Assembly (NCBI RefSeq): GCF_000332115.1
Contig: NC_020156.1
Location: forward strand, 3,659,501-3,723,500
Source: Nonlabens dokdonensis DSW-6
GTDB lineage: Bacteria; Bacteroidota; Bacteroidia; Flavobacteriales; Flavobacteriaceae
Direction: 5' to 3'
Length of the DNA: 64,000 nucleotides
The stretch's first letter is position 1. Every line of letters begins with the position of its first letter. Both the position numbers and the translations under genes were made by a program. Under the pieces are notes generated by a model. The model was not told the origin of the DNA. It did not search any database and saw nothing but the letters and a program-made list of their open reading frames with translations. This document shows, piece after piece, positions 5,730 to 34,139 of this stretch.

Positions 5730-5776
5730 GTTAGTATATAGTTATTTATTAAATTGCTTATATATACTAGTTGTGG
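5730..5776 (+). repeat. Partial attC-like site before cassette A
   Basis: The arms TAGTATATA and TATATACTA pair perfectly around about 20 bases and are followed by the GTTGTGG that begins cassette A (5770-5776). This resembles the 3' half and core of the complete sites further on. The cassette that owned the 5' part is not recognisable. Confidence 0.5.
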
Positions 5777-5790
5777 TGCATTTGAAAAAA

Positions 5791-6390
5791 ATGAAAATAA
5801 GACAAATTTCGATATTAATATTTACTCTTTCAGTAGCCTTTTCTTGTAGAAAATATATTCAAAAAGAAACTACTGACTATAAATATTTTGACAGACCTAA
5901 ATCTGACACAATTTCGATTAATAAACTGAAAGCAATAACAGACGAAGAATATTTACAATATGGAGTAAGAGTTGCATTTGTAAGTGAAAACAATGACACT
6001 ATTATTCCATTTGGTAAATATGCATATTACGGAACCGATACATTAGAGTTTTATGCGAATGTAATTGAACATCCGAATGATAGTACTTATGGAAGACAGA
6101 TTGCTATCGACAGAAATCAGAATGTTTTGTTTGATATTGTAATGTTTGACAATGGGCCAGAACCTTTTAATAATGGACTGACTCGAGTTCTTAGAAATGG
6201 TAAAATGGGCTACGCCAACAAATTTGGTCAAATAGTGATTTCTTGTGAATATGATTATGCAAAATGGTTTGAAAATGGAAAAGCCGAAGTGACTTATAAG
6301 GCAAAAGAGTATTTTGATTTGGAAGAACATAAAAGAGTTGAAAGTGACGAATGGTTCGAAATTGACAAAAAGGGAAAGAAATTAAAATAA
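5791..6390 (+). CDS. WG-repeat lipoprotein (cassette A)
   Basis: The ATG at 5791 gives a 199-residue protein with a signal peptide and lipobox ending in AFSC (Cys19). A longer frame from 5722 would put junk before the signal. The C-terminal half contains WG-repeat units (NGLTRVLRNGKMGYANKFG, then FENGKAEV), a beta-rich repeat fold of unknown ligand. The protein is probably anchored in a cell-envelope membrane. The gene starts 14 bases after the GTTGTGG cassette boundary and ends 8 bases before the matching CCACAAC, the layout of an integron cassette. Confidence 0.75.
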   Translation: MKIRQISILIFTLSVAFSCRKYIQKETTDYKYFDRPKSDTISINKLKAITDEEYLQYGVRVAFVSENNDTIIPFGKYAYYGTDTLEFYANVIEHPNDSTYGRQIAIDRNQNVLFDIVMFDNGPEPFNNGLTRVLRNGKMGYANKFGQIVISCEYDYAKWFENGKAEVTYKAKEYFDLEEHKRVESDEWFEIDKKGKKLK

Positions 6391-6398
6391 AAACGACA

Positions 6399-6593
6399 CC
6401 ACAACAAGGTGTATAAAACATAGCTAATAAGTGTTTAACCGAAAGGTTTGTGTATACTTAGAAAGTCCGCCAAATTTTTAATTTGGCTTTTAAAAAGAGA
6501 AAAATTAAAAACAAAATATAAAAATTCGGTTCTGTGTTTATCCGAAAGGTTCGTGTCTTTTTACACGCTACGTTTCATACACAAGTCCGTTGA
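6399..6593 (+). repeat. attC-like site of cassette A
   Basis: The R'' box CCACAAC (6399-6405) is the exact reverse complement of the cassette start GTTGTGG. Inner arms GTGTATAAAACATAGC and, near 6570, the reverse complement of GTGTATGAAACGTAGC pair with two A/G differences. The site ends at CCGTTGA (6587-6593). The roughly 190-base interior is not coding; small open frames across it are chance. Confidence 0.75.
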
Positions 6594-7054
6594 AAAAAAT
6601 CAACGATTTCGCAACATTGAAATTCATCGATTCTATTCTGAGCTTGGGTTTAATTTAGCAGTATTATGCTGGATATTACGATGTAGCTAGCCTTTCAAGT
6701 TGTTTCGATTGCATCGTTGAAAACTCTTGTTTTCAGAACGTAAAAACGTACAAACAACTTGTAAAAGGTAGCGTAAATAGAATAGAAATCCGCATTAACA
6801 CTCTGAAATTATGTCAGCTACAGAATGATCTTACAGAAATCAACGTCCCTTATACTCAGGTATAAAGGGCATAGATTCCTTATGAAGTTTTATTTTCATT
6901 TATTGACGAGTGGCAAATGATTGACATTTAACAACACTAGCGATAATTCATTTCAAAGAGAAGACAGTAATTTAGATCAAAGTAATATCTTTAGAGCAAT
7001 CAACTAAGAATTAACGGTAAGGGTTGATGCGTGAAACGAATCATAGCCTTACCG
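6590..7054 (+). repeat. 465-bp cassette-like unit, copy B1
   Basis: One of three copies of exactly 465 bp (others at 10566-11030 and 27063-27527), all directly behind an attC-like core CCGTT. It begins with a short hairpin (CGTTGA/TCAACG). It holds a decayed small frame that starts at the boundary TTG, and ends in a compact hairpin with arms AACGGTAAGG and CCTTACCGTT (7013-7056). In this copy the small frame is broken by a TAG about 26 codons in. No protein family is recognised. Confidence 0.75.
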
Positions 7055-7056
7055 TT
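7013..7056 (+). repeat. Short attC-like hairpin ending unit B1
   Basis: The 10-bp perfect arms AACGGTAAGG and CCTTACCGTT enclose 24 bases, with the next cassette starting at GTT (7054). The same hairpin ends the other two copies of the unit. Confidence 0.7.
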
Positions 7057-7132
7057 ACCCACAATTTAAAAAAACATCGAGACTTTAAACAAAATAATCA
7101 GTTGGATAAATGATAATTCGGGATTTTTATCC

Positions 7133-7780
7133 TTGATATTATTTATTGCGACAATCATTTATGGATGGTGGAGTGGACTTTGGTCATCGTTGACTAAAAA
7201 ACCGAAATTATCCGTTCGATTTATTGATAAAGTGTCATTTTACAGTTTCTATTTCACCGGAGAAAAATGGATGAATAAAGAATTAAATACGGAATTTGAA
7301 CTTCATAAAACGGGATTTGTTGCTTATATGTCAATTGCGAATATTGGAAACAAACCGACTTCCATAGATAAAATATTTCTCGGATATGAGAAGAATAAAG
7401 CAAAATCATTTTGGAAAAAACCTGAAATGGAATGGCTTGCTCAATGGCATCCAGCAGAAAATTTTTTAATCACTAATAAGAGTGGACATACGATTGGAGT
7501 AAATAATCTGAGAGTGAAATTTAACGAATTTGGTAGCGACAGCGATAGTGAATTAAATGTTGGAAAAAGTTCTGTAGGTGTTGCCTATTTTGAACAAGTT
7601 ACTGCCTGGGGAAATTTGAACCCTAAGACTACCGAAAATGACGCGATTAACGTAATTATTAAAATAAGAGATATTTATAAAAAGGAATATAAATTTAAAA
7701 CCAAATTAAAAAAACTTCCGATTGAAAAAGCTCGAGAATTTAATCCGCATTTTGGAAATGTTGAGAAATTATTAGATTAG
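7133..7780 (+). CDS. Hypothetical membrane-anchored protein (cassette C)
   Basis: About 215 residues are counted from a TTG. The frame stays open upstream to a stop at 7067, so the real start may be an unusual codon in 7070-7132. One N-terminal membrane segment (ILFIATIIYGWWSGLW) is followed by a soluble domain of about 180 residues with a beta-rich look. No known family is recognised. It sits alone in a cassette bounded by GTTACCC (7054-7060) and its exact complement GGGTAAC (7798-7804); the match extends to 13 of 14 bases. I infer cassette-borne expression without its own clear promoter. Confidence 0.65.
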   Translation: MILFIATIIYGWWSGLWSSLTKKPKLSVRFIDKVSFYSFYFTGEKWMNKELNTEFELHKTGFVAYMSIANIGNKPTSIDKIFLGYEKNKAKSFWKKPEMEWLAQWHPAENFLITNKSGHTIGVNNLRVKFNEFGSDSDSELNVGKSSVGVAYFEQVTAWGNLNPKTTENDAINVIIKIRDIYKKEYKFKTKLKKLPIEKAREFNPHFGNVEKLLD

Positions 7781-7797
7781 AAGTAGATAAAAACTGT

Positions 7798-7992
7798 GGG
7801 TAACAATGTATATAAAAAATAGCGCAAGTCATTGCTATCACTATGGTTTGGGCGTTTTTGGAAAGTCGCCAAATTTTTAAATTTGACGATTTCCAATAAA
7901 AAAAAGGAATAGTAAAATTTAAAAATTCGGCTTGTGTTTAATCCGAAAAGTAACAGCTTATTTTCAGCGCTACTTTTCATATACGGAGCCGT
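7798..7992 (+). repeat. attC-like site of cassette C
   Basis: R'' GGGTAAC is followed by the arm GTATATAAAAAATAGCGC. The 3' arm near 7968-7984 is the reverse complement of GTATATGAAAAGTAGCGC, again with two A/G differences. The site ends at CCGT (7989-7992), where the first IS1182-like copy is inserted. Confidence 0.75.
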
Positions 7993-9637
7993 CAGTTCGT
8001 CTCAAAACTGCGTGATTTCAGTTTAAATATACGTTAGAAAAGTGAAGTGAATGGATTTTGAGAAAGTGAGTTGGTAAGATTATTTTTGGTTTGAAAAGGC
8101 TTAAAAATGTTGATAGGAGCTTAAAAATGGCTTTATGGCGTTGTTTATTAAGTATAAAGGCTAGTTTTCCTTGCTCTTTTATGATGTTTAGGATTCTTTT
8201 GAGGTTGTATGCGATAGCGATGAGGCCAAAATCTGCACTGGCGTTCTGGATTCCTTTTTTAGTAATAATGTGATCAAAACCCCATTGGCGCTTTATGGTG
8301 CCATATGGATGTTCTACGATGGCTTGTCTTTTTTTATAGATCTCTGGTTGGTGTTGTACTCGTTTAAAATTAGCTTCTATGTACTGTTTGTATTCACTAC
8401 GCTGTACTATTTTACCGTTTGCTTTTGAGGTGGTGCATAGCGACCTGACTGGGCAGTTTCTACAGGCGCTGGTCTTGTATTGCTTGAACTTATAATTACG
8501 TGCTTTGTACCAGTTTCCATTGCTTTTAAGCTCGTGACCTTGCGGACATTGATAGCTGTCAGATGCTTTATCGTATTTAAAATGTTCTACGTTATAAGCT
8601 GGATCGGGCGCTTGACTTTTACGTCCTATAGCTGGTATGGCTACTAGGGTATCGATACCTAAATCGTGTGCTGTTTTAAACTCGCTGCCCGTGTGATAGC
8701 CTTTGTCGTAGAGAGCGGTGAATTGGTTGGTTTTAAGGATGGATTTTGCTCTGCGCAGCATGTTTCCCATCGCTTTTTTATCATTCTCGTTAGTAACTTT
8801 ATAATCTAGGAGTACTTTATGGTCAGCATCTACCGTGGTTTGTGCGGTGTAGCATACTTCTGTGATCATCCCACGAGTAATTTGGTGCCTGCTATCTGGA
8901 TCGCTGGTGGACAACTGCGGATTTTCGGTCGTGGTATCTTCCTTCAGCGTTTTATTGATTCCTTCGTAACGCTTGCGCTGTTTGTTGTGCTTGTCGATTT
9001 GGTCTTTGTGGTCTTGCTTTTCTTGGTCGTTGTCCGCTTTTGCAAGAGCGGTATTATGCTCCTCTAATTTTTTATCGATGTACTCGATGTGTCGGGCTAC
9101 TTTTTTGAGGTTGTAATTGTTTTTCTTGCTGTTTTGAGCTCTGAGTTTAGTGGAGTCTCCAGCGATTAAGGTGGCGCCTATCAGGTTGTGGTTTTGGGCG
9201 ATACTCACGGTGGCTCTAAAGACGCGTTTAATGGCTTTGGGGTTGTTTTTTCTAAACCTAGAGATGGTGTTGTGGTCTGGTTTGAGATTGCCTAGCAACC
9301 AGATGAGCTCGATGTTGCGATTGCATTCCAGTTCTAGTCTTCTAGAGGATCTCATGCGGTTCATGTAGCCATAGATGAAGAGTTTGAGAAGATCTGCTGG
9401 ATCATAAGGTGGTCTTCCTTGAGATGCTAGTGATGCAAAGCCTAGATGTTCTAAATCGAGACTGTCTACAAAGGTGTCAATAGCCCTAACGGTATTATCA
9501 GCGGCAATCATGTCATCTAGGCATGTGGTGTATAAAGTGAGCTGACTGCGCGACTCTTTTTGCAAGTATTCCATATATAAATATCGGAAAAATCGATATA
9601 AATATCAAGCAGAATGGGAGAGTTTTGAGACAGTCTG
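7993..9637 (-). mobile_element. IS1182-family insertion sequence, copy 1
   Basis: This 1645-bp element is bounded by related inverted ends CAGTTCGTCTCAAAACTG and CAGACTGTCTCAAAACTC. It holds one transposase gene. Flanks are CCGT on the left and ACGT on the right. Its left flank is the end of cassette C's site and its right flank is the end of cassette D's site in opposite orientation, so this copy is an inversion breakpoint. Confidence 0.9.
8018..9574 (-). CDS. IS1182-family transposase, copy 1
   Basis: An intact 518-residue DDE transposase. It has an N-terminal helical DUF772-like region with GRPPYDPADLLKLFIYGY. Catalytic-type positions are in AGDSTKLRAQNSKKN (first Asp), LYDKGYHTG (second Asp) and VEHPYGTIKRQWGF (Glu). 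A cysteine cluster CPQGH and CRNCPVRSLC lies between the last two. The start ATG is 63 bases inside the left end. It acts on its own inverted ends to move the element. It is close to identical to the four other copies. Confidence 0.93.
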   Translation of the reverse strand: MEYLQKESRSQLTLYTTCLDDMIAADNTVRAIDTFVDSLDLEHLGFASLASQGRPPYDPADLLKLFIYGYMNRMRSSRRLELECNRNIELIWLLGNLKPDHNTISRFRKNNPKAIKRVFRATVSIAQNHNLIGATLIAGDSTKLRAQNSKKNNYNLKKVARHIEYIDKKLEEHNTALAKADNDQEKQDHKDQIDKHNKQRKRYEGINKTLKEDTTTENPQLSTSDPDSRHQITRGMITEVCYTAQTTVDADHKVLLDYKVTNENDKKAMGNMLRRAKSILKTNQFTALYDKGYHTGSEFKTAHDLGIDTLVAIPAIGRKSQAPDPAYNVEHFKYDKASDSYQCPQGHELKSNGNWYKARNYKFKQYKTSACRNCPVRSLCTTSKANGKIVQRSEYKQYIEANFKRVQHQPEIYKKRQAIVEHPYGTIKRQWGFDHIITKKGIQNASADFGLIAIAYNLKRILNIIKEQGKLAFILNKQRHKAIFKLLSTFLSLFKPKIILPTHFLKIHSLHFSNVYLN

Positions 9638-9764
9638 ACGTTTATGTATAAGAATAGTTGCGGGTTTGTATGCGAGGATTTTCCGAAGGAAAATCAGACG
9701 TTACAAACCAGCAACGACCTTTGATTAAGCACTAAACCGCAATTATTTTTATACGGTGTTATGC
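9638..9764 (-). repeat. attC-like site of cassette D (inverted)
   Basis: On the minus strand it runs from R'' GCATAAC (9764-9758) through the arm GTATAAAAATAATTGCGG to the partner of GTATAAGAATAGTTGCGG, ending in ACGT at the IS. The two arm mismatches are again A against G. Confidence 0.75.
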
Positions 9765-9772
9765 AATGTTTT

Positions 9773-10510
9773 TTAATTTTTATATTTCAGACTTTCAATA
9801 TCTTTTTTGTCGCCAATGATTTGATAATTCAAAATTCGATTAAAAACATCTTGTTTATTTATCTCAATAATTGTCTTGTCAAATTTATTCTTGATTAAAA
9901 TGTCCTTGTCGATAATAATATTCTTGATTAAACTGTCAAAGACGTTTTCATCTGGTTCTGTCGTAATGATAATTCCGTTAACTAGCTCTTTTTTGGTTGT
10001 TATTTGGTTTATGTTGACACTAACCTGAAAATCGTTTGTTGTAAACTTACATTTTAAAATTATTTCCAAATCATTGGATTTAAATCTTTTCTTTTTTATT
10101 AACCATTCATTCTTGCAACCAGAGACGATAAATTCATTAAGAATATTCAATAACTCTTTTGTTGGTAATTGTTTGAATTCAGAAGCTTTTTTAAACCCTA
10201 ATTCTAACAATTCTAAATAGTAACTAAAGTCAGAAGTTCCTTTAATTTTTAAATATCTGTCTCTATCAAATGGTAATTGAACGTTTAATACATCTATTGG
10301 TCTAATTGAAGGATTTTCAATTTCATCTTCGTGCAGCGATATTGATAACATATTGAAATTTCCATCAGTTTTAAAACGAAGCCTTCTTAACTTTTTAGAA
10401 AAGTAGTTGCTTATAAATCTTGTTCGTAATTGAAACTCATACCTTAAGTCGTTTTCATCTTTAATGTACTTGTCGTATTCAAGTCCTAAGTTAAAATAGT
10501 AAAGTGTCAT
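9773..10510 (-). CDS. Hypothetical protein (cassette D)
   Basis: This 245-residue soluble protein is rich in Lys, Asn and Ile, with no signal peptide, membrane segment or known motif. It is probably cytoplasmic. It is the only gene in a cassette bounded on the minus strand by GTTATGC (start, about 10566-10560) and GCATAAC (9764-9758), matching over 13 of 14 bases. The cassette lies in the inverted part of the array. No function can be proposed. Confidence 0.65.
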   Translation of the reverse strand: MTLYYFNLGLEYDKYIKDENDLRYEFQLRTRFISNYFSKKLRRLRFKTDGNFNMLSISLHEDEIENPSIRPIDVLNVQLPFDRDRYLKIKGTSDFSYYLELLELGFKKASEFKQLPTKELLNILNEFIVSGCKNEWLIKKKRFKSNDLEIILKCKFTTNDFQVSVNINQITTKKELVNGIIITTEPDENVFDSLIKNIIIDKDILIKNKFDKTIIEINKQDVFNRILNYQIIGDKKDIESLKYKN

Positions 10511-10565
10511 TGGGTTGTCAAAATGGATTGTTTTTCTCGTCGGTGATTTTTTAAATATTGCATAA

Positions 10566-11030
10566 CGGTAAGGCTATGATTCGTTTCACGCATCAACCCT
10601 TACCGTTAATTCTTAGTTGATTGCTCTAAAGATATTACTTTGATCTAAATTACTGTCTTCTCTTTGAAATGAATTATCGCTAGTGTTGTTAAATGTCAAT
10701 CATTTGCCACTCGTCAATAAATGAAAATAAAACTTCATAAGGAATCTATGCCCTTTATACCTGAGTATAAGGGACGTTGATTTCTGTAAGATCATTCTGT
10801 AGCTGACATAATTTCAGAGTGTTAATGCGGATTTCTATTCTATTTACGCTACCTTTTACAAGTTGTTTGTACGTTTTTACGTTCTGAAAACAAGAGTTTT
10901 CAACGATGCAATCGAAACAACTTGAAAGGCTAGCTACATCGTAATATCCAGCATAATACTGCTAAATTAAACCCAAGCTCAGAATAGAATCGATGAATTT
11001 CAATGTTGCGAAATCGTTGATTTTTTTCAA
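10566..11030 (-). repeat. 465-bp cassette-like unit, copy B2 (inverted)
   Basis: The reverse-complement copy of the unit at 6590-7054, almost identical and exactly the same length. It lies between cassette D and the second IS1182-like copy. Its end hairpin is at 10564-10607. The small frame carries the same early TAG as copy B1. Confidence 0.75.
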
Positions 11031-11033
11031 CGG

Positions 11034-12678
11034 CAGTTCGTCTCAAAACTGCGTGATTTCAGTTTAAATATACGTTAGAAAAGTGAAGTGAATGGATTTT
11101 GAGAAAGTGAGTTGGTAAGATTATTTTTGGTTTGAAAAGGCTTAAAAATGTTGATAGGAGCTTAAAAATGGCTTTATGGCGTTGTTTATTAAGTATAAAG
11201 GCTAGTTTTCCTTGCTCTTTTATGATGTTTAGGATTCTTTTGAGGTTGTATGCGATAGCGATGAGGCCAAAATCTGCACTGGCGTTCTGGATTCCTTTTT
11301 TAGTAATAATGTGATCAAAACCCCATTGGCGCTTTATGGTGCCATATGGATGTTCTACGATGGCTTGTCTTTTTTTATAGATCTCTGGTTGTTGTTGTAC
11401 TCGTTTAAAATTAGCTTCTATGTACTGTTTGTATTCACTACGCTGGACTATTTTACCGTTTGCTTTTGATGTGGTGCATAGCGACCTGACTGGGCAGCTT
11501 TTACAGGCGCTACTCTTATATTGCTTAAACTTATAATTACGTGCTTTGTACCAGTTTCCATTGCTTTTAAGCTCGTGACCTTGCGGACATTGATAGCTGT
11601 CAGATGCTTTATCGTATTTAAAATGTTCTACGTTATAAGCTGGATCGGGCGCTTGACTTTTACGTCCTATAGCTGGTATGGCTACTAGGGTATCGATGCC
11701 TAAATCGTGTGCTGTTTTAAACTCGCTGCCCGTGTGATAGCCTTTGTCGTAGAGAGCGGTGAATTGGTTGGTTTTAAGGATAGATTTTGCTCTGCGCAGC
11801 ATGTTTCCCATCGCTTTTTTATCATTCTCGTTAGTAACTTTATAATCTAGGAGTACTTTATGGTCAGCATCTACCGTGGTTTGTGCGGTGTAGCATACTT
11901 CTGTGATCATCCCACGAGTAATTTGGTGCCTGCTATCTGGATCGCTGGTGGACAACTGCGGATTTTCGGTCGTGGTATCTTCCTTCAGCGTTTTATTGAT
12001 TCCTTCGTAACGCTTGCGCTGTTTGTTGTGCTTGTCGATTTGGTCTTTGTGGTCTTGCTTTTCTTGGTCGTTGTCCGCTTTTGCAAGAGCGGTATTATGC
12101 TCCTCTAATTTTTTATCGATGTACTCGATGTGTCGGGCTACTTTTTTGAGGTTGTAATTGTTTTTCTTGCTGTTTTGAGCTCTGAGTTTAGTGGAGTCTC
12201 CAGCGATTAAGGTGGCGCCTATCAGGTTGTGGTTTTGGGCGATACTCACGGTGGCTCTAAAGACGCGTTTAATGGCTTTGGGGTTGTTTTTTCTAAACCT
12301 AGAGATGGTGTTGTGGTCTGGTTTGAGATTGCCTAGCAACCAGATGAGCTCGATGTTGCGATTGCATTCCAGTTCTAGTCTTCTAGAGGATCTCATGCGG
12401 TTCATGTAGCCATAGATGAAGAGTTTGAGAAGATCTGCTGGATCATAAGGTGGTCTTCCTTGAGATGCTAGTGATGCAAAGCCTAGATGTTCTAAATCGA
12501 GACTGTCTACAAAGGTGTCAATAGCCCTAACGGTATTATCAGCGGCAATCATGTCATCTAGGCATGTGGTGTATAAAGTGAGCTGACTGCGCGACTCTTT
12601 TTGCAAGTATTCCATATATAAATATCGGAAAAATCGATATAAATATCAAGCAGAATGGGAGAGTTTTGAGACAGTCTG
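11034..12678 (-). mobile_element. IS1182-family insertion sequence, copy 2
   Basis: 1645 bp with the same ends as copy 1. Four-base flanks ACGG (11030-11033) and ACGG (12679-12682) match. In cassette orientation it splits the core of cassette E's site (CCGT) from the 465-bp unit (CCGTTGA). Confidence 0.9.
11059..12615 (-). CDS. IS1182-family transposase, copy 2
   Basis: An intact 518-residue transposase that differs from copy 1 at only a few residues (for example CKSC for CRNC in the cysteine cluster). The DDE-type motifs AGDSTK, YDKGYHTG and VEHPYG are intact, so it is probably active and able to serve the broken copies. Confidence 0.93.
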   Translation of the reverse strand: MEYLQKESRSQLTLYTTCLDDMIAADNTVRAIDTFVDSLDLEHLGFASLASQGRPPYDPADLLKLFIYGYMNRMRSSRRLELECNRNIELIWLLGNLKPDHNTISRFRKNNPKAIKRVFRATVSIAQNHNLIGATLIAGDSTKLRAQNSKKNNYNLKKVARHIEYIDKKLEEHNTALAKADNDQEKQDHKDQIDKHNKQRKRYEGINKTLKEDTTTENPQLSTSDPDSRHQITRGMITEVCYTAQTTVDADHKVLLDYKVTNENDKKAMGNMLRRAKSILKTNQFTALYDKGYHTGSEFKTAHDLGIDTLVAIPAIGRKSQAPDPAYNVEHFKYDKASDSYQCPQGHELKSNGNWYKARNYKFKQYKSSACKSCPVRSLCTTSKANGKIVQRSEYKQYIEANFKRVQQQPEIYKKRQAIVEHPYGTIKRQWGFDHIITKKGIQNASADFGLIAIAYNLKRILNIIKEQGKLAFILNKQRHKAIFKLLSTFLSLFKPKIILPTHFLKIHSLHFSNVYLN

Positions 12679-12868
12679 ACGGTCTTGTATATGGCTCGTA
12701 GCGTGTGAATTAGCGATAACCTTTCGGTTAAGCACGAGCCGAATTTTTTAATTTTCTTATTATCTTTTCTTTTCAATAAGCCAAATTAAAAAATTTGGCG
12801 GACTTGCAAATATACCTTAACTTTGAATTAAGCAACTGATTAGCTATGAGCTATATACGTTGTTGCCC
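12679..12868 (-). repeat. attC-like site of cassette E (inverted)
   Basis: On the minus strand it runs from R'' GGGCAAC (12868-12862) and arm GTATATAGCTCATAGC to the partner of GTATATGGCTCGTAGC, ending in CCGT beside IS copy 2. The two arm differences are A/G at the same arm positions as in other sites. Confidence 0.75.
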
Positions 12869-13563
12869 ACAGTGTTTTTCGCTCTGTAAACTCCAGATTT
12901 AATCCAATTCAGTTCATTTTCGTAATGCTTTTTTATAAATATATTCCAATCATCCCAACTGAAAAAATTACTCGTATGTTTTATGAAAAGCAATTTTGTT
13001 ACTTTTCCATTTGAATGTTCAATTTTTACTTCTCTTGGAAATGTCCCGTTTATTTTTTCTGATTTCTTAAAATCTATAATTTTAAAATCACTTTTCTTAA
13101 TTGCGGTTTTAAGATAGTTAGAAGCCTCAACACCAATAAATATGCAAAAGTCAGGTTTTAATATTGGCAGTAATTTAAAATAGTTCTCCCAACCATTCAA
13201 ATAATCATTATCATTTGGTCTGCTTTTTCTCGTGTGCATTGAACTTTGAACAAAATTGTAAAATGCTAATTTCGACCAAAGAATTTTAGTGTCAATTCGG
13301 CTATCATTTCTAAATAACGCACGATTTAAATAATAGAAAACTTTCGTTCGGTCGTATTTTTTTTCGAGAGCAATTATCTTGTGAATATCTCTCGTAAAAG
13401 TTGGTTTATTATTCCAATCGATTGATTTTTGATTATCATCTCGATAATGGCTTTCGCCAATAATCACAACTTTTTTCTCTGAACCAAAATATTTCTCGCC
13501 AATAAAAGGCAACCATTTCAATTCGGTTATTTCTTTAAATTCCGAATCCTTTGATTTATCCAT
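12844..13563 (-). CDS. Uracil-DNA-glycosylase-like protein (cassette E)
   Basis: This 239-residue protein resembles the uracil-DNA glycosylase superfamily. KVVIIGESHYRDD sits where motif 1 of that fold would be (after WLPFIGEKYFGSEKK). A second strand CIFIGVEASNYL and a late KHTSNFFSW resemble the strand and His-loop regions. The assignment is by pattern only and the activity may differ. The start overlaps the stop of the small upstream gene by one base, so the two are coupled. The last 8 codons run through the R'' box into the attC-like site. Confidence 0.5.
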   Translation of the reverse strand: MDKSKDSEFKEITELKWLPFIGEKYFGSEKKVVIIGESHYRDDNQKSIDWNNKPTFTRDIHKIIALEKKYDRTKVFYYLNRALFRNDSRIDTKILWSKLAFYNFVQSSMHTRKSRPNDNDYLNGWENYFKLLPILKPDFCIFIGVEASNYLKTAIKKSDFKIIDFKKSEKINGTFPREVKIEHSNGKVTKLLFIKHTSNFFSWDDWNIFIKKHYENELNWIKSGVYRAKNTVGNNVYSS

Positions 13564-13775
13564 TAATTTATTTTTTCTTCTTCCATATATGTTGAGTTTG
13601 TTAATTTACTAACATCAACATTATATTTTCTTTGGTAAGCAGATTTGATTTCGGCTTTTCCTTTTGTGTAACCCATTGGTTTGTGAGTAAAAACAACTTC
13701 AACGCTCATTCCTTTTTCGATTTTCTGTCCGCCAAAAGTTCCACTACGTTTTATTGATACTTTGTATAATCCCAT
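13563..13775 (-). CDS. Small hypothetical protein, partner of the UDG-like protein
   Basis: 70 residues, basic N-terminus (MGLYKVSIKRSGTFGG), no signal or membrane segment. It is first in a two-gene cassette, and its TAA overlaps the ATG of the next gene, which suggests coupled translation and a joint role. The cassette starts at GTTGCCC (minus strand, 13834-13828) and ends at GGGCAAC, matching over 14 of 15 bases. The family is not recognised. Confidence 0.6.
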   Translation of the reverse strand: MGLYKVSIKRSGTFGGQKIEKGMSVEVVFTHKPMGYTKGKAEIKSAYQRKYNVDVSKLTNSTYMEEEKIN

Positions 13776-25844: not shown

Positions 25845-26429
25845 GGCAACTATTCGCTCATAAATTTCTCTACATGCCTTGTTGTATTTACACGCATTAA
25901 AGCTGCACATAAATAATAGGTTTCTTAATTTTTGATTTCCTATTTTACTGATCCTACTTCTTCCTTTTACACTACTTCCACTCTTTCTTATCACTGGTGT
26001 TAATCCGGCATAACTACATAATTCTGCAGCACTGGTAAATCGATCAAATCCATCGGTTAGAACCACTAGCATCAGCGCTGTTTTCTTTCCTATTCCTGGT
26101 ATCGTTTTTAATCGTGATAGCACATCGCTATGAACTTCTTTAACTAAGATCTGGAGTTTTCCTCTAGCATTTCCATCTCTTTTTTAATTTGTCGTAAACT
26201 ACGTTTAAGAGAGCTTACAACTGCTTTACTTGGATTTCCTAGTACCGATTCTCCATGTAGTTTATTTTTAAGCGCTGTGCTTTGTTTTGTATACACAGCA
26301 AGCAGTCTAGTCATTTGAAGACACTCTAATTGATGCTTAGAATTACCTCTCCAGAGCTTTAATTCAACCTGCTTTGCATATTCACAGATTAGTTTTGAAT
26401 CACTCTTATCGGTCTTTATTTTGGACAAA

Positions 26430-26480
26430 TGTCTTCCTCTCGTCACGCTTTCGCGAAAGCGTAACTCGTCGGAGACAAGT
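26430..26480. repeat. Small dispersed repeat carrying the palindrome, copy 2
   Basis: 51 bp with the same ends as 25805-25844, but its centre is the CGCTTTCGCGAAAGCG palindrome (26446-26461, palindrome copy 4). It breaks the transposase frame. Confidence 0.75.
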
Positions 26481-26733
26481 GTATAAATCGTTTTACTGAT
26501 AATGGATTCTCTACCGATACTTTGATACCTTCTTCAAGTAAATAATAAGCTAATTGATAGTGATAATATCCTGTTGCTTCCATTACACAATGACTATCGT
26601 GATCTAAGAGTTTTACAAACTTTTTGAATCCTGCAGGAGAGTTTTTAAACTGATAATGATCTCCACAATGGTCCGTAACATCAAAGACTAAATGGCTGAT
26701 ATCAATTCCATAAAATTTAATATCTTTATTCAT

Positions 26734-26945
26734 AACTAAATGATTTTTGAAAGGTCTACCTACGCGAGTTTCAACGACTTAAAATCGAGGTCTAAAAGCC
26801 TCATAGAACTGTACGAAATCTGTGTAGAAAAAGAGAGGTGATTTTCAATGTTGACGAGATCTAGGTCTCTGCGTATATAATAACCTTATTCCTCTCTTTT
26901 GTTCTTTCTTATTTATATCTAAATTTAATAAGATTCAAACTAAAG
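26734..26945 (-). ncRNA. Candidate bridge (seeker) RNA region of IS110 copy 2
   Basis: 212 non-coding bases upstream of the broken transposase, aligned with the region in copy 1. The loop carries CGTATATAA (26872-26880), identical to the right target flank at 26947-26955. Confidence 0.38.
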
Positions 26946-27062: not shown

Positions 27063-27527
27063 TTGAAAAAAATCAACGATTTCGCAACATTGAAATTCAT
27101 CGATCCTATTCTGAGCTTGGGTTTAATTGAGCAGTATTATGCTGGATATTACGATGTAGCTAGCCTATCAAGTTGTTTCGATTGCATCGTTGAAAACTCG
27201 TGTTTTCAGAACGTAAAAACGTACAAACAACTTGTAAAAGGTAGCGTAAATAGAATAGAAATACGCATTAACACTCTGAAATTATGACAGCTACAGAATG
27301 ATCTTACAGAAATCAACGTCCCTTATACTCAGGTATAAAGGGCATAGATTCCTTATGAAGTTTTATTTTCATTTATTGACGAGTGGCAAATGATTGACAT
27401 TTAACAACACTAGCGATAATTCATTTCAAAGAGAAGACAGTAATTTAGATCAAAGTAATATCTTTAGAGCAATCAACTAAGAATTAACGGTAAGGGTTGA
27501 TGCGTGAAACGAATCATAGCCTTACCG
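27063..27527 (+). repeat. 465-bp cassette-like unit, copy B3
   Basis: The third copy of exactly 465 bp, between cassette I's site and the Wadjet cassette. Here the small frame is open for 74 codons (TTG start at 27063 to TGA at 27287; LKKINDFATLKFIDPILSLG and on), because the TAG of the other copies reads GAG. A different TGA ends it earlier than in the others. The end hairpin is at 27485-27529. The frame is probably decaying. Confidence 0.72.
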
Positions 27528-27577
27528 TTGTGAATAATGCGGAAATCGTGCTAAAATTGAACATTTGAACTAAAAAC

Positions 27578-27663
27578 GCCAACGCACAAACAGCACATTT
27601 ATTTTTTTGCCCACGCGAAATGCCAACGCTAAAAAAAATAAAAGAGCTGTTTCTTGCCAACGC
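27578..27663 (+). repeat. GCCAACGC repeats left of the Wadjet operon
   Basis: Three direct copies at 27578, 27622 and 27656; the last two are followed by TAAAA and TCAAAA. The sequence between the cassette start (27527) and jetA (27678) holds nothing else recognised. The same motif returns right of the operon. Confidence 0.6.
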
Positions 27664-27677
27664 TCAAAACCAAAGAA

Positions 27678-28874
27678 ATGAACACCTTCAATGACATAAA
27701 AGAATTAGTAACCGCTTTAAAAAGAGAGGAAAAACTAATATCTGAAATGTTCAGCAAAAGGAAATCTATTGACTACAAATTAAATGATGCTTTAGAACTT
27801 GTTGATTATGAAGAAAGTCGTATTGACTTATTAATTCAAAAAGCTGTAATTAGACAAAATGGAGATTTTTTGGAACTTGATGGCCAATTTCTGGAGTTTT
27901 TTGAGCAAGTTCTGTATGTGAGTGAAGAAATAAACCTCTCATATATTGATGAAAATATAAAAAACATAAAAGAAAACATTGTTTACTTTTTAAATGAGTC
28001 AAGCGAAAACAGAAGATACGCTTACTTACGATTTATTAAAAAAACTTTTCGAAATATGGGACTTATCACACTTAGAAGTGTGGTGGATATGAGACGAAAT
28101 ATTGAGAATACCTTTAAGAATGAATCGAATTACAAAAACAAACAATTAAAACTAGAAAATCTTGATGAGAAAAGAACAGTAGTAACAAATTTGATACAAC
28201 AAACACTTTTACTCATTAATGAGGAAGAACTTACCTTTTTTAATAGAGCTCTAGACGAAGAATTGGGTAGAATCATTATTGAACTAAAAAATCAGCTAGG
28301 AGAATGCTCACACAACCTAATTGAAATAGAAAAACAAATAATTGATTATTTAAACCAAATAAAACAACAAGGAAAATTTTTAGAAAAGCTAAGAAAACTG
28401 AAATACTTAAAAGACAATTTTATTATAGAAGCAGAAACTAACATCAAACAGATAGTTTCAAACAAAAATGAAGTCATTTTTGAAACAAAACCTAATGAAT
28501 CTATAAACTTATCTATTGACTTTCTTAGAGAAGACGAGCGAGCTTTTAATGCAATTAAGAGAATTGCTAAAAATTATAGAGACAGACTACTTTTTAAACC
28601 AGAAATGGCAGAGCGTATTTCTAATGATTATCTTGACAATAATATTGAAGAAGAGATAATGGTAAATCTAGAAGAACTAAGAAACCGTTTCATTGCAACA
28701 AGCGATAATTTATTCAATTTTATTTTAAACTATGACTTTTTGAAAGAGGTAGAATTTAATGAAAGAGTCACTATTTTTTGTCAAATTATTTCTCAGTATG
28801 AAGAAGAATTACAAATACAAGATAACTACCAAACCACCAATGGCATTGAATATGCTATGGTATTTTCAAGATAA
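27678..28874 (+). CDS. jetA: Wadjet-like JetA / MksF-type kleisin subunit
   Basis: 398 residues from the ATG at 27678 (an in-frame TTG at 27654 lies inside a repeat). The protein is helical. An N-terminal winged-helix-like part (about 40-90, DLLIQKAVIRQNGDFLELDG) leads into long helices, as expected for a kleisin that bridges the SMC heads. The assignment rests mainly on its place as first gene of a four-gene operon whose third gene is an SMC-type ATPase and whose fourth has a Toprim-like domain. JetB starts 6 bases after its stop. Sequence similarity to named JetA families was not testable. Confidence 0.72.
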   Translation: MNTFNDIKELVTALKREEKLISEMFSKRKSIDYKLNDALELVDYEESRIDLLIQKAVIRQNGDFLELDGQFLEFFEQVLYVSEEINLSYIDENIKNIKENIVYFLNESSENRRYAYLRFIKKTFRNMGLITLRSVVDMRRNIENTFKNESNYKNKQLKLENLDEKRTVVTNLIQQTLLLINEEELTFFNRALDEELGRIIIELKNQLGECSHNLIEIEKQIIDYLNQIKQQGKFLEKLRKLKYLKDNFIIEAETNIKQIVSNKNEVIFETKPNESINLSIDFLREDERAFNAIKRIAKNYRDRLLFKPEMAERISNDYLDNNIEEEIMVNLEELRNRFIATSDNLFNFILNYDFLKEVEFNERVTIFCQIISQYEEELQIQDNYQTTNGIEYAMVFSR

Positions 28875-28880
28875 ATTTCA

Positions 28881-29453
28881 ATGATTACAAAATATACATC
28901 AGAAATTTTTAACGTGCTTCGCAAGGGACAATTTATCTGTTCAAATAGTCCTGATGATGACATTAAAAAACTTTACAAAGTTTTAGAAGATGAGGAAACT
29001 TTTGAAGACTTACACGAATTTTTTTATCAAATTAATTACATATTAGAGCAAGGCAACGAATATTATTATTTCAGTCGAAAAGAAAATAATGTTGACTTAG
29101 ATAGAAAACTAGAAAAAGCCTTTAATTGGATTGATATTCTGGACTTTTTTAAAACTTTCGATACCTCTTTTGATGTCGGCTTTAGGTTTTCGCCATCAGA
29201 CATTGTAAATCAATTAAAAAATAATGCTGATTTAAAAACGAAATTGGAAAAGCTTAAAAAAGTAAGTGGAGATAAAAAAACTAATTCTGAACGCATAAAA
29301 AAAATAATTGAAAAACTAGAAAAAGATAATTTCATATCCTTAGAAAATGAGATAACTGAAACTTACAAAGTGCTTACATCTTTTAATTATTTGAAGGACA
29401 TTATAACAACTATTAATATTCCCGAAGAAATAGAAAATGAGATACCTGAATAA
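28881..29453 (+). CDS. jetB: Wadjet-like JetB / MksE-type subunit
   Basis: 190 residues, helical and acidic. Its early pattern ITKYTSEIFNVLRKGQFIC and then YYYFSRKENN resembles MksE/JetB winged-helix subunits, which bind the kleisin and help load DNA. It is translationally coupled to jetC, overlapping it by 17 bases. The identity is supported by gene order and size more than by sequence. Confidence 0.7.
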   Translation: MITKYTSEIFNVLRKGQFICSNSPDDDIKKLYKVLEDEETFEDLHEFFYQINYILEQGNEYYYFSRKENNVDLDRKLEKAFNWIDILDFFKTFDTSFDVGFRFSPSDIVNQLKNNADLKTKLEKLKKVSGDKKTNSERIKKIIEKLEKDNFISLENEITETYKVLTSFNYLKDIITTINIPEEIENEIPE

Positions 29454-32400
29454 AATAGTTTTTATAAATAGTGCATCTGTACAATATGCTGAAATCGAAC
29501 TAGATGGAAATGTTCACTTAATTGGAACGCAAGGCGTAGGAAAAAGCACACTACTTCGTGCTATATTATTTTTTTACAATGCTAATAAAACCAAGCTTGG
29601 AATTCCGAAACAAAAGAAAGGATTTGATGATTATTACTTTCAGTATCAGAACTCTTACATCGTTTATGAAATACTAAAAGACAACATCCCTTTTTGTGTT
29701 TTAGCCTATAAAGTAAATGGTAAAGTTGCATTCCGATTTTTTAATTCTTCCTATAACAGAGAATTATTTATTGACAATAACAATAAAGCTTTTGAAAGTT
29801 GGGACAGTATCAGAAATGCATTTGGTAAAGAAATTTATTATACCAAACTCATAAAAAGTTATGACGAATATCGCAGAATCATTTATGGGGACAATAGCGG
29901 TTTAAAACCTGAATTTAAAAAGTATGCTCTAGCGGAAAGTAAGCAGTATCAAAATATACCAAGAACTATTCAAAATGTACTTCTAAACACCAATCTTGAA
30001 GCAAAATTTATTAAAGATACTATCATAAATTCTTTAAATGATGAGGAGTTTATAATAGATATTGAGAATTATGCAAAAAATCATTTACGTGATTTTGAAA
30101 CGCAAATCAACGATATCAAAATATGGTTTAAAGAAAACAGAAGAGGACTGATTGTTGTTAGAAAACAAGCTGATAAAATAGTTGACCGATATAGAGCTTA
30201 CAATTTTCTCAAAAGAGAAACAAAGGATTTAGCTTATGAGTTAGCTACTAGAATGAATTTTATAGAAAACGAAAAACCGCTTTTAAATTCTAGTTATTCC
30301 AAAGAAATCAATGAATTAAATGTTATAACAAAAAAAAGAGAAAACTTAGTAAAAACACATCGTAGAAGAGAGCAAGATATCGTTTCTGATTTAAAACTAA
30401 TTACAACAGAATTAGGAAAAGCTAAACAGAAACTAACAGAATACGAAAATCAAAACATTAAAGAAATAATTTCAAAAGTTTCAAAAAAAGACACACTAAC
30501 TATTGAGCAAAAGACTTTAGAAGACGAAAAAAATCTACTCACCTCAAAATTTGCAGAAATTAGTCAAAAATTTGAGGCTCTTATAAAACAACTTCAAAAC
30601 CAACAGCAGGAGTTTACAAACAAACAGAACTCAGATATCATTAAAATAAAAAGTGACTTTGGAGAGCATAAATCTTCAATATTTGATACTTACCAGAAAT
30701 TAATAAGTCAAATTAATGAAGAAAACAAAGATGAGATAGAAAAGGCAACTAATGACTTAGAAAAAATAAAAGAAAATGAATACAGCCTAAAGAGAAGCAA
30801 ATCAGAATTAAAACATAAAACCTTTTTTTTAACAGAAATTGAGAAATTTAAAGCCAATGAAAAAACACTTAGTAACAAAATCTCAAACTCGAAAAACATC
30901 ATTCTAAATGCCACAAACGAAACAAAAACAATTCGTAAAGAATGGGAATTAGAAACAAAAGAAGTTGAAAACACATATAATTTATCAGTTGAAAGAGAAA
31001 ACGAAAAAAGTAAAAAACTAAGGTTGAAAATTGAGAATATCGAAAACAAAATTCAACAAAGCAAACCTTCTCTTTATGGTTGGTTAAACGATAACATTAG
31101 TGATTGGCAAAGTACCATAGGCAAAGTGATTGATGAAGACAATGTACTCTTCAACACAGAATTGAATCCTAAATTGATAGATACTAATTCCTCTACTCTA
31201 TTTGGCATAGAGTTAAACTTAAATACATTAAAAAACAGGATTAAATCCGTAAAAGAATATCAGCAAGAAATTGAGGTTTACAATGATGAGATTAATGAAA
31301 TCCAAAATGCTATTCAACAGCTTAGTACGAATAAAGAAACTAGCTTGAGTAAGCTAAAGATTAAATTTGGTAAAAAACTAAAAGAACTTAATGAGGCTAT
31401 TGCAGAAAACGAATATGCCATTTCTCAAAACGAAGCGAAGTTTAAAAAGAATAAGGTTGATTTAGAGGAATGGATTTTAAAAGCAAAATCAGAAAAAGAA
31501 GCTGTTTTTCAAAAATTAGAAGATAATTTAAATGAATTTGCATCAAAGAAATTAAAAGCTGAAGAAACTTTAAAAAACATTAAGAAAGGAATAAATCGAA
31601 AACAAAGCTTAAAAGAAAAAGAAAGAGACACGGAGCTTAAAGTTTTAGAAGAAACTAAGAATCAGAAAGTTTCTGAAATAAATAGTGCTATCTCAAAGGC
31701 AAAATCAGCATTTGATAATCGAATTCAAGAATTGAAGAAAGAGCAAAGTTCTGAATTAGAAAACAAAGGAGCTGATACAAAAAGGCTTAGCCATATAGAA
31801 AGTAGATTAAGCAAAATTAAAACAGACCTAGAGTACATAAAAGAGAACGAAACACTTGTTATAGAATACAATAAAGACAAAAGAGAACTCTTTGACAATG
31901 TACCTCAATTAAAAGTTGATAAGGCAAGTTTAGAGAAAAAACAAAGTACAATAATCAATGAACATAAAATTGAACTGAATAAAGTCAACACAAAACGGAC
32001 TAAACAAGAAAAATTTGTTAAGTCAATACAAATTCAAATTAATGAATTTGATAATGACTTAAAGGATTTTGAAAGTTTTAAGCTCTCAGATGCATTTCTA
32101 AATATTAAAAGCTATTACGAAGTTCCTGAACCTATTGCTGATTTTGATGAACAGAAGAAAGCCACAACATTAATCAAAGAAATTATTGATAAGCATTCAA
32201 AAAGTCTAAGCACTTATGAAGAACTAAGACAAGCCGTTAACTTATTTAATGGGAACTTTAATGAAACTAATATTTTTAGCTTCAAAACAAAATTAATTAC
32301 AAAAGACGATTTTCTAAGCTTTGCATTCGAGCTCAAAGAGTTTATTGAAGAAGATAAAATTAAAGAATATGAAAAACGTGTGAATGATAGGTTTGCACAC

Positions 32401-33144
32401 ATAATTCATTTAATTGGCAGAGAAACAACAGAGCTGAACTCTAAACAAGGCGAAATTGAAAAAATAATTAAAAAAATAAATGATGATTTCCTAGGCAAAA
32501 ACTTTATAGAAGCTATCAAGACAATGGAAATAAGAACGTTAGAAAGTTCAAATCCCATCGTAAAATTATTGATTAAGATAAAAGAGTTTAATGATGAAAA
32601 TAGTTTAGTTTTAGGAGAATCAAATCTTTTTACCTCTTCAGAAAGTAACACAAAAAATCAAAAAGCAGTTGACCTACTGAAGCAACTTGTAAAAGAGTTA
32701 GAGAAATCAAAAAATACAAATTTAACGCTATCCGAATCTTTTGACCTACAATTTAGAATCATAGAAAACGATAACGACTCTGGTCGGGTGGAGAAGCTTT
32801 CTAATGTAGGAAGTAATGGCACAGATATTTTAGTTAAAGCAATGATTAATATTTCGTTATTGAATGTTTTTAAAATTGATGCTTCAAAGAAATTTAAAGA
32901 TTTTAAGCTTCATTGTATGATGGATGAAATAGGAACACTTCATCCTACTAATCAAAAAGGAATTTTGAGATTTGCCAACGAAAGAAATATTTTACTCATC
33001 AATGGTTCGCCAACAAGTCAAAATGCAACAGATTATAAATACACTTATAAATTAGCCAAAGAACAGTCTAAAACTAATTCTAAAAAATACATTACTAAAA
33101 TTAACAGATTGATTAAAAAAGTAAACACTAAAGTTCTTAATTAA
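29437..33144 (+). CDS. jetC: Wadjet-like JetC / MksB-type SMC ATPase
   Basis: 1235 residues. Walker A is at residues 30-38 (GTQGVGKST). A very long Lys/Glu-rich coiled coil fills about 260-1090. The C-terminal head has an SMC-like signature region (NVGSNGTDILVKAM, near 1120) and Walker B (LHCMMDEIG, near 1160). Such ATPases extrude DNA loops; in Wadjet systems they sense small circular DNA. The single chain with head-coil-head order fits JetC rather than Rad50/SbcC, which has a zinc hook that I do not see. It overlaps jetB by 17 bases and jetD by 1. Confidence 0.85.
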   Translation: MRYLNKIVFINSASVQYAEIELDGNVHLIGTQGVGKSTLLRAILFFYNANKTKLGIPKQKKGFDDYYFQYQNSYIVYEILKDNIPFCVLAYKVNGKVAFRFFNSSYNRELFIDNNNKAFESWDSIRNAFGKEIYYTKLIKSYDEYRRIIYGDNSGLKPEFKKYALAESKQYQNIPRTIQNVLLNTNLEAKFIKDTIINSLNDEEFIIDIENYAKNHLRDFETQINDIKIWFKENRRGLIVVRKQADKIVDRYRAYNFLKRETKDLAYELATRMNFIENEKPLLNSSYSKEINELNVITKKRENLVKTHRRREQDIVSDLKLITTELGKAKQKLTEYENQNIKEIISKVSKKDTLTIEQKTLEDEKNLLTSKFAEISQKFEALIKQLQNQQQEFTNKQNSDIIKIKSDFGEHKSSIFDTYQKLISQINEENKDEIEKATNDLEKIKENEYSLKRSKSELKHKTFFLTEIEKFKANEKTLSNKISNSKNIILNATNETKTIRKEWELETKEVENTYNLSVERENEKSKKLRLKIENIENKIQQSKPSLYGWLNDNISDWQSTIGKVIDEDNVLFNTELNPKLIDTNSSTLFGIELNLNTLKNRIKSVKEYQQEIEVYNDEINEIQNAIQQLSTNKETSLSKLKIKFGKKLKELNEAIAENEYAISQNEAKFKKNKVDLEEWILKAKSEKEAVFQKLEDNLNEFASKKLKAEETLKNIKKGINRKQSLKEKERDTELKVLEETKNQKVSEINSAISKAKSAFDNRIQELKKEQSSELENKGADTKRLSHIESRLSKIKTDLEYIKENETLVIEYNKDKRELFDNVPQLKVDKASLEKKQSTIINEHKIELNKVNTKRTKQEKFVKSIQIQINEFDNDLKDFESFKLSDAFLNIKSYYEVPEPIADFDEQKKATTLIKEIIDKHSKSLSTYEELRQAVNLFNGNFNETNIFSFKTKLITKDDFLSFAFELKEFIEEDKIKEYEKRVNDRFAHIIHLIGRETTELNSKQGEIEKIIKKINDDFLGKNFIEAIKTMEIRTLESSNPIVKLLIKIKEFNDENSLVLGESNLFTSSESNTKNQKAVDLLKQLVKELEKSKNTNLTLSESFDLQFRIIENDNDSGRVEKLSNVGSNGTDILVKAMINISLLNVFKIDASKKFKDFKLHCMMDEIGTLHPTNQKGILRFANERNILLINGSPTSQNATDYKYTYKLAKEQSKTNSKKYITKINRLIKKVNTKVLN

Positions 33145-34004
33145 TGAAGTTAAGCTTAAAAATAGCACAAGTGTTAGTAAAGCTAATCAATGGCGAATCA
33201 ATTCCAAATAGTTTGGCTAAAAGTAGTCTAATAGATGCTTTAGTTGCTGAAAATATTATTTATCGAAAAGGAAAGCATAAAAAGTCGCTAGAGTTAATCA
33301 ATGAAAAAGGACTGCATACATTTCTTGCAAATCAATTACAGATTACTGATGTATATAGCTATATTTCATTAAAAGAGAATCCAAATGCTACGCGTGCAGA
33401 ATCAACCAAAATCACAACAGACTCAAAGATTTCAAATGAAAGAGCTTTTAAAGGATTTTTAGTAAATAGTTATAATTCTATAACAGCTGAATTAAACAAC
33501 AAACAAATAATAATTAATCCTCAAAAAGGAAGTTTTATTTTTATTTATGACTATGAATCATTTAAAATTCCCAAAGAGGTAACAGTTGTTGGAGTTGAGA
33601 ATACAAAAAATTTTAGTCAAATTAACAAACAGAAATACTTGTTTAATAAAGTCAATCCTTTATTCATATCACGCTATCCACAGAACCAAAGTAAAGACTT
33701 TATAAAATGGATGAAATCTATTCCAAATAATTATATGCATTTTGGAGATTTCGATATCGCAGGAATTGGAATTTATATAAATGAATATAAGAAACACTTA
33801 TCGGAAAAAGCGTCCTTGTTTATTCCTGAAAATATTAAAATTGATTTGAAAAAAGGAAATAGAGAACGATATGATAAACAAAGAATAAATTTTAAGATAG
33901 ACGATATACAAGAGCCAAAAGTTTTAGATTTAATTGAATTAATAAAAAAAGAAAAAAAAGGCTTAGACCAAGAATATTATATTAACACGAATAGCCAACG
34001 CTAA
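33144..34004 (+). CDS. jetD: Wadjet-like JetD, Toprim nuclease subunit
   Basis: 286 residues, shorter than the roughly 400 I expect for JetD. An N-terminal winged-helix-like part is followed by a Toprim-type core: a glutamate in VVGVENTKNF (near 150), the acidic pair in FGDFDIAGIGIY (near 200), and KGLDQE (near 274), which resembles the conserved late Gln-Glu. JetD cleaves plasmid DNA held by the SMC complex. Its last codons (NSQR-stop) are formed by the GCCAACGC repeat, so the C-terminus may have been trimmed. The ATG overlaps the jetC stop. Confidence 0.78.
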   Translation: MKLSLKIAQVLVKLINGESIPNSLAKSSLIDALVAENIIYRKGKHKKSLELINEKGLHTFLANQLQITDVYSYISLKENPNATRAESTKITTDSKISNERAFKGFLVNSYNSITAELNNKQIIINPQKGSFIFIYDYESFKIPKEVTVVGVENTKNFSQINKQKYLFNKVNPLFISRYPQNQSKDFIKWMKSIPNNYMHFGDFDIAGIGIYINEYKKHLSEKASLFIPENIKIDLKKGNRERYDKQRINFKIDDIQEPKVLDLIELIKKEKKGLDQEYYINTNSQR

Positions 34005-34085
34005 AAGCCATACACATTTACAGTCTCACCATCCAAGCATCACCAAAACTGTAAAAGAGTATGTCTCGCCAACGCTCAATCCGAA
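33994..34085 (+). repeat. GCCAACGC repeats right of the Wadjet operon
   Basis: Copies at 33994-34001 (followed by TAAAA) and 34078-34085 (followed by TCAA). They are arranged as in the pair left of the operon, with AAAGAG and a TGTYTYGCCAACGCTC-like tail between. Confidence 0.6.
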
Positions 34086-34132
34086 GTAAATAACAAACAT
34101 CGGAAAACCTAGCAGAACGTGAAAAGCACTAT

Positions 34133-34139
34133 GCACAAC
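34133..34139 (+). repeat. R'' box closing the Wadjet cassette
   Basis: GCACAAC is complementary, at 6 of 7 bases, to the cassette start GTTGTGA (27527-27533). Extended over 15 bases, 12 agree. The rest of the attC-like site is replaced by an IS110 relic. Confidence 0.55.

Follow-up and report, generated by a model that had tools for sequence, protein, structure and literature searches.

By what enzyme has a chain of DNA units been assembled in which the start of each unit, GTT plus four variable bases, is complementary to that same unit's end? The question is raised by a stretch of the Nonlabens dokdonensis DSW-6 genome, C1:3659501-3723500, here called the window (64 kb, analysed as a whole), in a genome consisting of a single contig of 3,914,632 bp. 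An initial annotation of its letters had taken these units as an integron-type cassette array, of the kind known as a CALIN (cluster of attC sites lacking an integrase), in a flavobacterium. The 7-mers that it named are indeed found, with their exact complements, where they had been placed, and the array is of integron type. The CALIN label, by contrast, is true only within the window. There at least two attC sites are seen with no integrase gene nearby, as is the definition, though an attI-like site and the remnant of a recombinase gene are also present, at the left border, and an intact gene is found elsewhere. With a probability of roughly 0.85, the region would thus be the cassette array of a decayed integron, its enzyme belonging to a Bacteroidota family of tyrosine recombinases which lack the patch of IntI, the integron integrase.

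The left border is what connects array to enzyme. Window positions 5622-5773 align with the reverse complement of sequence around a recombinase gene start in locus L007 of the same genome, through TATATACTAG|TTG, and therefore the array has an attI-like site along with about 16 codons of a recombinase gene. The intact gene (278 amino acids, aa), at C1:3067681-3068514, is about 600 kb from the array, and has the same attI and its own array. That is, its attI is adjoined by a gene-less cassette of 468 nucleotides (nt), followed by an opposite-strand array with six model matches at 3052439-3063088. The statement that no tyrosine recombinase is present consequently holds inside the window, i.e., no complete gene is there, and fails genome-wide. 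Of the named records, the one closest to the recombinase is an uncultured Nonlabens protein, 77% identical. An attI adjoins the recombinase gene at ten displayed sites (N. dokdonensis twice), and in the loci displayed the patch-less gene has attI and first cassette immediately upstream; these sites were recognised by eye and only in loci with the array upstream of the gene, loci with downstream arrays lying outside the attI search. Repeats AAAAAGTTCTCATATACNCC flank attI and overlap the gene start, with two copies in the window at 5651-5722 and three in L010 at 1-221, and are possible accessory or regulatory sites.

To describe attC sites, a covariance model, R1, was built from an alignment (A1) of 25 sites, each 129-135 nt long. 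One of them is in the window; the other 24 come from seven loci in other genomes and were picked by start/R'' pairing together with paired arms, or by eye. RNAalifold gives for A1 a 13-bp stem, in which 8 of the 13 pairs have both partners changed. When folded, the sites form hairpins, and the cassettes are bounded by attC with AAC/GTT core boxes. Seven array sites outside training are matched by R1 (6399, 7798, 9633 and 12674, the latter two on the minus strand, 16910, 20654, and 26938), at 25.8-92.4 bits and E of 5.3e-4 or better. The short attC of the gene-less cassette receives only 17.9 bits. Over 29 sources there are 115 R1 matches at E<=1e-3, of which 25 are training sites, with three from L007 recurring in L096. 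In the genome as a whole R1 finds at least 26 attC, spread over about seven places (E<=0.1, with 150 scored out of 1859 first-look candidates). Within the window just one intact consecutive model pair is seen (590-nt spacing), because mobile elements cut most attC. An Rfam scan returned nothing at gathering scores.

The complementarity of starts and ends was counted over consecutive same-strand R1 sites 150-6000 nt apart, with 2000 re-pairings supplying the chance level and with R1 itself ignoring pairing. As training sites were chosen partly by that same pairing, the fair count is that of loci without training sites. There all four variable bases match in 21 of 41 pairs, as compared with a re-paired mean of 2.51 and maximum of 9, and the claimed complementarity thus is above chance. 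With neither site of a pair in training, 22 of 52 are perfect (re-paired maximum 8). All loci together, leaving out L007 as it overlaps L096, supply 83 consecutive pairs, 79 of them at 150-6000 nt; 61 have GTT and AAC at both ends, and 43 of 79 are perfect versus a mean of 3.19 and maximum of 9 in 2000 re-pairings.

This agreement extends past the core box. Among the 21 perfect cassettes, which are mostly from N. dokdonensis and two congeners (L096, L101, L103-L106), start and end agree in 19, 18, and 18 at positions 8-10 and in 21, 18, and 17 at positions 12-14, dropping to at most 7 of 21 at each of positions 15-20. Position 11 instead has A in the start and G in the end's complement in 20 of 21, i.e., A·C on the top strand and a T·G wobble on the bottom strand. 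Over all loci (42 distinct) the equivalent numbers are 40, 38, and 34, then 39, 35, and 34, then 10 or fewer beyond position 14, with A/G in 38 of 42. When single strands of DNA are folded, the bottom strand is the more stable one for the excised form in 20 of 21 (mean -27.2 versus -23.3 kcal/mol) and for the integrated site in 16 of 21; for random pieces from the same loci it is so in 38 of 105. Over all loci the excised form and the integrated site give 41 of 43 and 37 of 43, respectively. Two other approaches were left unused for counts. A loose start/end screen with weak hairpins over whole loci was too noisy (230 pairs per strand in the window versus 95.5 and 101.75 resampled, and several loci, e.g., L044, without excess), and a greedy cassette walk left true arrays after the first cassettes.

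The recombinase itself possesses the tyrosine-recombinase catalytic residues, with R136, K161, H225, R228, H251, and Y260 invariant across 31 aligned proteins. It is without the approximately 32-residue patch (I2) by which an integron integrase is recognised, and without an 11-residue block. Within that alignment IntI1 and a Pseudoalteromonas open reading frame (ORF) have blocks absent from the other 29 proteins. The spacing from K to the HxLRH motif is 63-64 in all 120 homologues among the matches listed (120 of 4511) and 63-65 in each of the 34 Bacteroidota proteins used for the tree, as compared with 104-106 in 98 of the 120 IntI1 homologues listed (of the rest, 10 could not be scored and 12 had other values). 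The best sequence match in the PDB is an integron integrase, 2a3v, aligned in two segments that leave out chain residues 208-244. The protein reaches no NCBIfam cut-off: It scores 187.5 bits versus a cut-off of 265 with TIGR02249, the IntI model, and its top curated model is XerA_Arch, at 190.4 of 220 bits, the NCBI product name of which is 'site-specific tyrosine recombinase/integron integrase'. Homologues are named recombinase, integrase, or XerD in their source records. Among five PF00589 proteins of the N. dokdonensis genome, it is the patch-less recombinase that is the best TIGR02249 match.

In a tree of 46 proteins the recombinase groups with IntI, separated from XerC and XerD of E. coli and from one N. 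dokdonensis Xer (100/99). The position of the patch-less group within this sequence tree is nevertheless unsafe, since the fork joining it to two proteobacterial plasmid proteins has 83/75 support, the IntI rows are mostly IntI1-like, and long branches meet. A structure model (mean pLDDT 84.7) yields best Foldseek E-values with XerA (5hxy) and IntI (2a3v), and query TM-scores of 0.74-0.77 for 2a3v, 0.54-0.56 for 5hxy, and 0.72-0.74 for lambda integrase chains. The predicted fold would be that of a simple tyrosine recombinase, no more than that.

How widely do enzyme and sites occur together? At 17 of 20 recombinase loci attC matches are found (E<=0.05), in 16 within 3 kb of the gene and in L007 at 4.6 kb; seven of the loci supplied training sites, and among the other 13 there are 10 with attC. 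Those without a match are L010 and L062, in which the contig ends beside the gene, and L011, which encodes a 40% identical protein from a Bacteroidales metagenome-assembled genome. Matches are partial in L050, cut by a contig end, and L059, covering just 65 nt. In relation to the gene, attC are upstream in L044-L047, L049, and L052 (open frames of 278-291 aa) and in L057 and L060 (363 and 372 aa), and downstream in L050, L051, L053, L054, L056, L058, L059, and L061 (306-404 aa). Downstream matches are seen as well on a Chryseobacterium plasmid, NZ_CP041688.1 (L091), which carries the recombinase, annotated as 'site-specific tyrosine recombinase/integron integrase', an IS110 transposase, and a group II intron.

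Within the family Flavobacteriaceae the recombinase is found in 189 of 299 genomes at E<=1e-40, and an R1 attC match in 261 of 298 at E<=1e-5. Over the 298 shared genomes, counted by hand, attC are present in 184 of 189 with the recombinase versus 77 of 109 others (Fisher p 3e-11). A phylum-wide draw finds attC in 77 of 247 genomes, which include members of further families in the class and phylum. None of 298 family genomes has a canonical IntI at E<=1e-70 or at the cut-off, in a search whose built-in controls gave no signal; on three records the same model gave IntI1 507 bits and an unannotated Pseudoalteromonas ORF 454 bits. The Chryseobacterium plasmid protein gives in that model a match split at the patch and below cut-off.

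The array, which begins at an attI-like junction (5770|5771) and ends with the R'' box at 34133-34139, is read as 12 cassettes, nine gene-bearing and three gene-less, along with five DDE-transposase elements of about 1645 bp, at R' boxes, and two IS110-type elements (IS, insertion sequence), between R'' and the rest of attC. Its parts, in order, are these:

5622..5669, minus strand: recombinase-gene remnant, start codon plus about 16 codons, one indel, rest missing, from alignment to the intact gene's upstream region and 5' end in L007
5651 and 5698: repeats AAAAAGTTCTCATATACNCCTAAAA at the attI-like site
5670..5770, plus strand: attI-like site, crossover G|TT at 5770/5771, core ATATATACTAG|TT, the same as beside the intact recombinase gene
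5771..6589, plus strand: cassette 1, WG-repeat protein, attC 6399-6595
6590..7054, plus strand: gene-less cassette copy A (6589-7056, or 468 nt, if GTT is counted at both ends)
7055..7992, plus strand: cassette with ORF 7133-7780, attC 7798-7997 interrupted at R' by a transposase element
7993..9637, minus strand: DDE-transposase element copy 1, 518-aa ORF, at CCGT/ACGT of the R' box
9638..10563, minus strand: inverted cassette, ORF 9773-10510, attC 9633-9764 (minus)
10564..11031, minus strand: gene-less cassette copy B, inverted
11034..12678, minus strand: DDE-transposase element copy 2, 518-aa ORF
12679..13834, minus strand: inverted cassette, ORF 12844-13563, attC 12674-12868 (minus)
13835..15479, plus strand: DDE-transposase element copy 3, split reading frame
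15482..16314, plus strand: cassette with ORF 15467-16183, lipoprotein-like start (by eye), attC 16188-16320 intact and an R1 training site
16315..17032, plus strand: cassette with two small ORFs, attC 16910-17038
17033..18680, plus strand: DDE-transposase element copy 4, split reading frame
18683..19359, plus strand: cassette with HigB-like toxin and helix-turn-helix antitoxin genes, R'' box 19353-19359
19360..20660 (end approximate), minus strand: IS110-type element between R'' and the remaining attC (right part 20654-20848)
20843..22488, plus strand: DDE-transposase element copy 5, 518-aa ORF
22491..25575, plus strand: cassette with a 1002-aa ORF (22532-25540)
25576..26937 (end approximate), minus strand: second IS110-type element with a fragmented transposase, between R'' and the remaining attC (26938-27068)
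27063..27527, plus strand: gene-less cassette copy C (27062-27529 with GTT at both ends), six differences to the other copies
27528..34139, plus strand: 6.6-kb cassette, Wadjet/MksBEFG-like four-gene operon (406-aa ORF, MksE, DUF3584, DUF7281)
40389..40520, plus strand: decayed attC, 61.3 bits, AAC/GTT lost from its R boxes, beyond the array span

The initial annotation had listed the pairs correctly, but not the gene-less cassette, with its three window copies, as a unit. The units 9758/10560 and 12862/13827 are inverted, their genes and attC being on the minus strand. Both borders had been placed in the window: The left one is there, as attI-like site plus gene remnant, and the decayed attC lies past the claimed span. 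Segments 9638-11033 and 12679-13834 are the inverted ones, flanked by IS copies. The Wadjet-like cassette agrees with its R'' (34133-34139) at 6 of 7 bases, with IS110-like sequence thereafter; no PDB sequence match at E<=0.001 was found for its DUF3584 protein. The 1002-aa protein has no Pfam, NCBIfam, or PADLOC match at E<=1e-3. A palindrome around CTTTCGCGAAAG is seen in several intergenic spots, at window positions 5577, 26429, and 34291 and at about 10040 in L007.

Traces of cassette movement are seen in and beyond the window. Complete at both ends, the gene-less cassette is found at five places in N. dokdonensis and two in another genome (G242), bounded each time by GTT and with different neighbours; its 3' end is found at nine places in 14 sources searched, these seven and two without a recognised start. 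Another cassette, of 849 bp and 85% identical, is common to genome G294 and the Chryseobacterium plasmid (where its gene is a metallophosphoesterase), running from CCGTT to AAC with different sequence beyond. The boundaries of both cassettes thus fall at GTT in independent contexts, and the latter cassette displays a compensating change, GTTGCCA..TGGCAAC versus GTTACCA..TGGTAAC. Genomes G091 and G294 have recombinase and attI alike (98% over 2.9 kb), and diverge from the junction onward.

The insertion elements, too, sit at particular points of the attC. Each of the five DDE-transposase copies is at ACGT/CCGT of an R' box, near copies are at array sites of L096 and L097, and the element seems to target attC right ends. 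Its DUF772 and DDE_Tnp_1_6 family matches are from a scan of the copy at 20907, and by these domains it may be IS1182-like. The IS110-type elements begin with AACAAAGAACTGAG directly after R'', with the same junction in the L046 and L060 arrays. Members of IS1111 are reported, in a passage of PMC11187229, to target one attC end, similar to these junctions.

Anatomy, co-location, boundaries, pairing, and strand bias are read directly from the DNA. As to mechanism, cassettes would have been inserted successively at the attI-like site at 5770 via site-specific recombination at G|TT. In an excised circle the end and start of a cassette would pair, giving a folded bottom-strand attC hairpin, a single-strand substrate which the tyrosine recombinase, presumably the patch-less one, would join to attI. 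The local gene is gone save its first codons, and the intact copy about 600 kb away could serve the array in trans. It seems rather probable, if far from secure, that Bacteroidota, chiefly Flavobacteriaceae, have an integron family of their own, the recombinase of which never had or has lost I2, with strand choice and the block to second cleavage achieved otherwise, e.g., by a 14-nt stem with its position-11 wobble.

A number of points weigh against this reading. It rests on sequence comparison, and includes no strain pair differing by one array unit. The covariation in A1 is weak evidence alone, leaning towards a stem, because paired arms helped in selecting its sites; R1 misses short attC; and the loci are mostly the best-matching ones rather than a random draw. 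The four-base match fails in 20 of 41 pairs of the fair set and in 36 of 79 overall, failures which may reflect missed sites, insertions, or decay. Five of 189 genomes with the recombinase have no attC, and 77 of 109 without it at E<=1e-40 do have them, so that for these one has to assume either a different enzyme or remoter kin. Lastly, a passage on the integron-like subgroup by Smyshlyaev et al. 2021 calls the patch insertion essential for integron function (PMC8138268).

Those 77 genomes, along with core boxes and a G|TT crossover that obey classical rules, are what could be brought forward for an ordinary CALIN, that is, one whose cassettes were gathered by a canonical, patch-bearing IntI, lost or never resident, with the patch-less recombinase a bystander. 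This is improbable: No family genome among 298 has IntI above cut-off, though the search finds IntI1, in the loci displayed attI and first cassette come just upstream of the patch-less gene, and the window's attI bears that very gene's remnant. Less probable still, and by a good deal, is that the repeats are hairpin elements such as terminators, REP-like sequences, or transposon ends, with 7-base pairs stemming from IS insertion. The sites do fold as hairpins and IS copies do sit at five R' and two R'' boxes; yet loci from other genera show the pairing too, in chain after chain starting at attI, and each start matches its own end and not others.

A further possibility is compatible with the cassette-array reading, and is to be taken seriously even if we would put it somewhat below even odds: The array was made by integron recombination, its later rearrangement was mostly the work of IS, and the distant recombinase has ceased to act on it. 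Window positions 13833-18698 are 99% identical, inverted, to 13039-17903 of the recombinase-side array (L096), over 4.9 kb with two cassettes plus IS copies, and therefore part of the array may have been moved as larger blocks flanked by IS, which also is a point against cassette-by-cassette insertion. The inverted segments between IS copies, the IS-cut state of most array attC, and the decayed attC at 40389 would fit as well. That three gene-less cassettes are identical, with one beside the intact attI, suggests instead recent movement.

If the patch-less recombinase is indeed the enzyme, then most Flavobacteriaceae have cassette arrays overlooked by searches for patch-bearing IntI, and one such recombinase with attC is plasmid-borne, in Chryseobacterium. 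Integrons already are recorded in Bacteroidota (passages in PMC8618304 and PMC2426708), and the portion of the IntegronFinder 2.0 paper drawn upon names one complete Bacteroidetes integron, that of Salinibacter ruber (PMC9024848). Escudero et al. 2016 ask how I2 could have been selected before attC sites, or attC before I2 (PMC4792948). Patch-less recombinases would be a living form of the intermediate which this 'chicken-egg' problem demands, and with their attC arrays they are enzyme and substrates by which the question becomes testable. No description of a patch-less integron system came up in searches of openly licensed PMC papers (preprints excluded), and the passages on the integron-like subgroup in Smyshlyaev et al. 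2021 describe none (PMC8138268).

With canonical integrons the system shares an attI beside a tyrosine recombinase gene, serial cassettes, G|TT crossover, AAC/GTT core boxes, a bottom-strand folding bias, and IS110/IS1111-type insertion at attC. It differs from them in a recombinase without I2 and the 11-residue block, and in eight loci with attC downstream of the gene; 14-nt pairing and the position-11 wobble may be further differences. With CALINs it shares a window without a complete recombinase gene, and differs in having kept attI and the gene's 5' end, with an intact gene and the same attI elsewhere in the genome. XerA, XerC, and XerD have the same length, domain plan, and absence of the patch, whereas the recombinase here is encoded beside attI and cassettes and is found in the tree with IntI, apart from XerC/D. 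As it appears integron-like in its working but is without the IntI patch, the system is filed as an integron variant.

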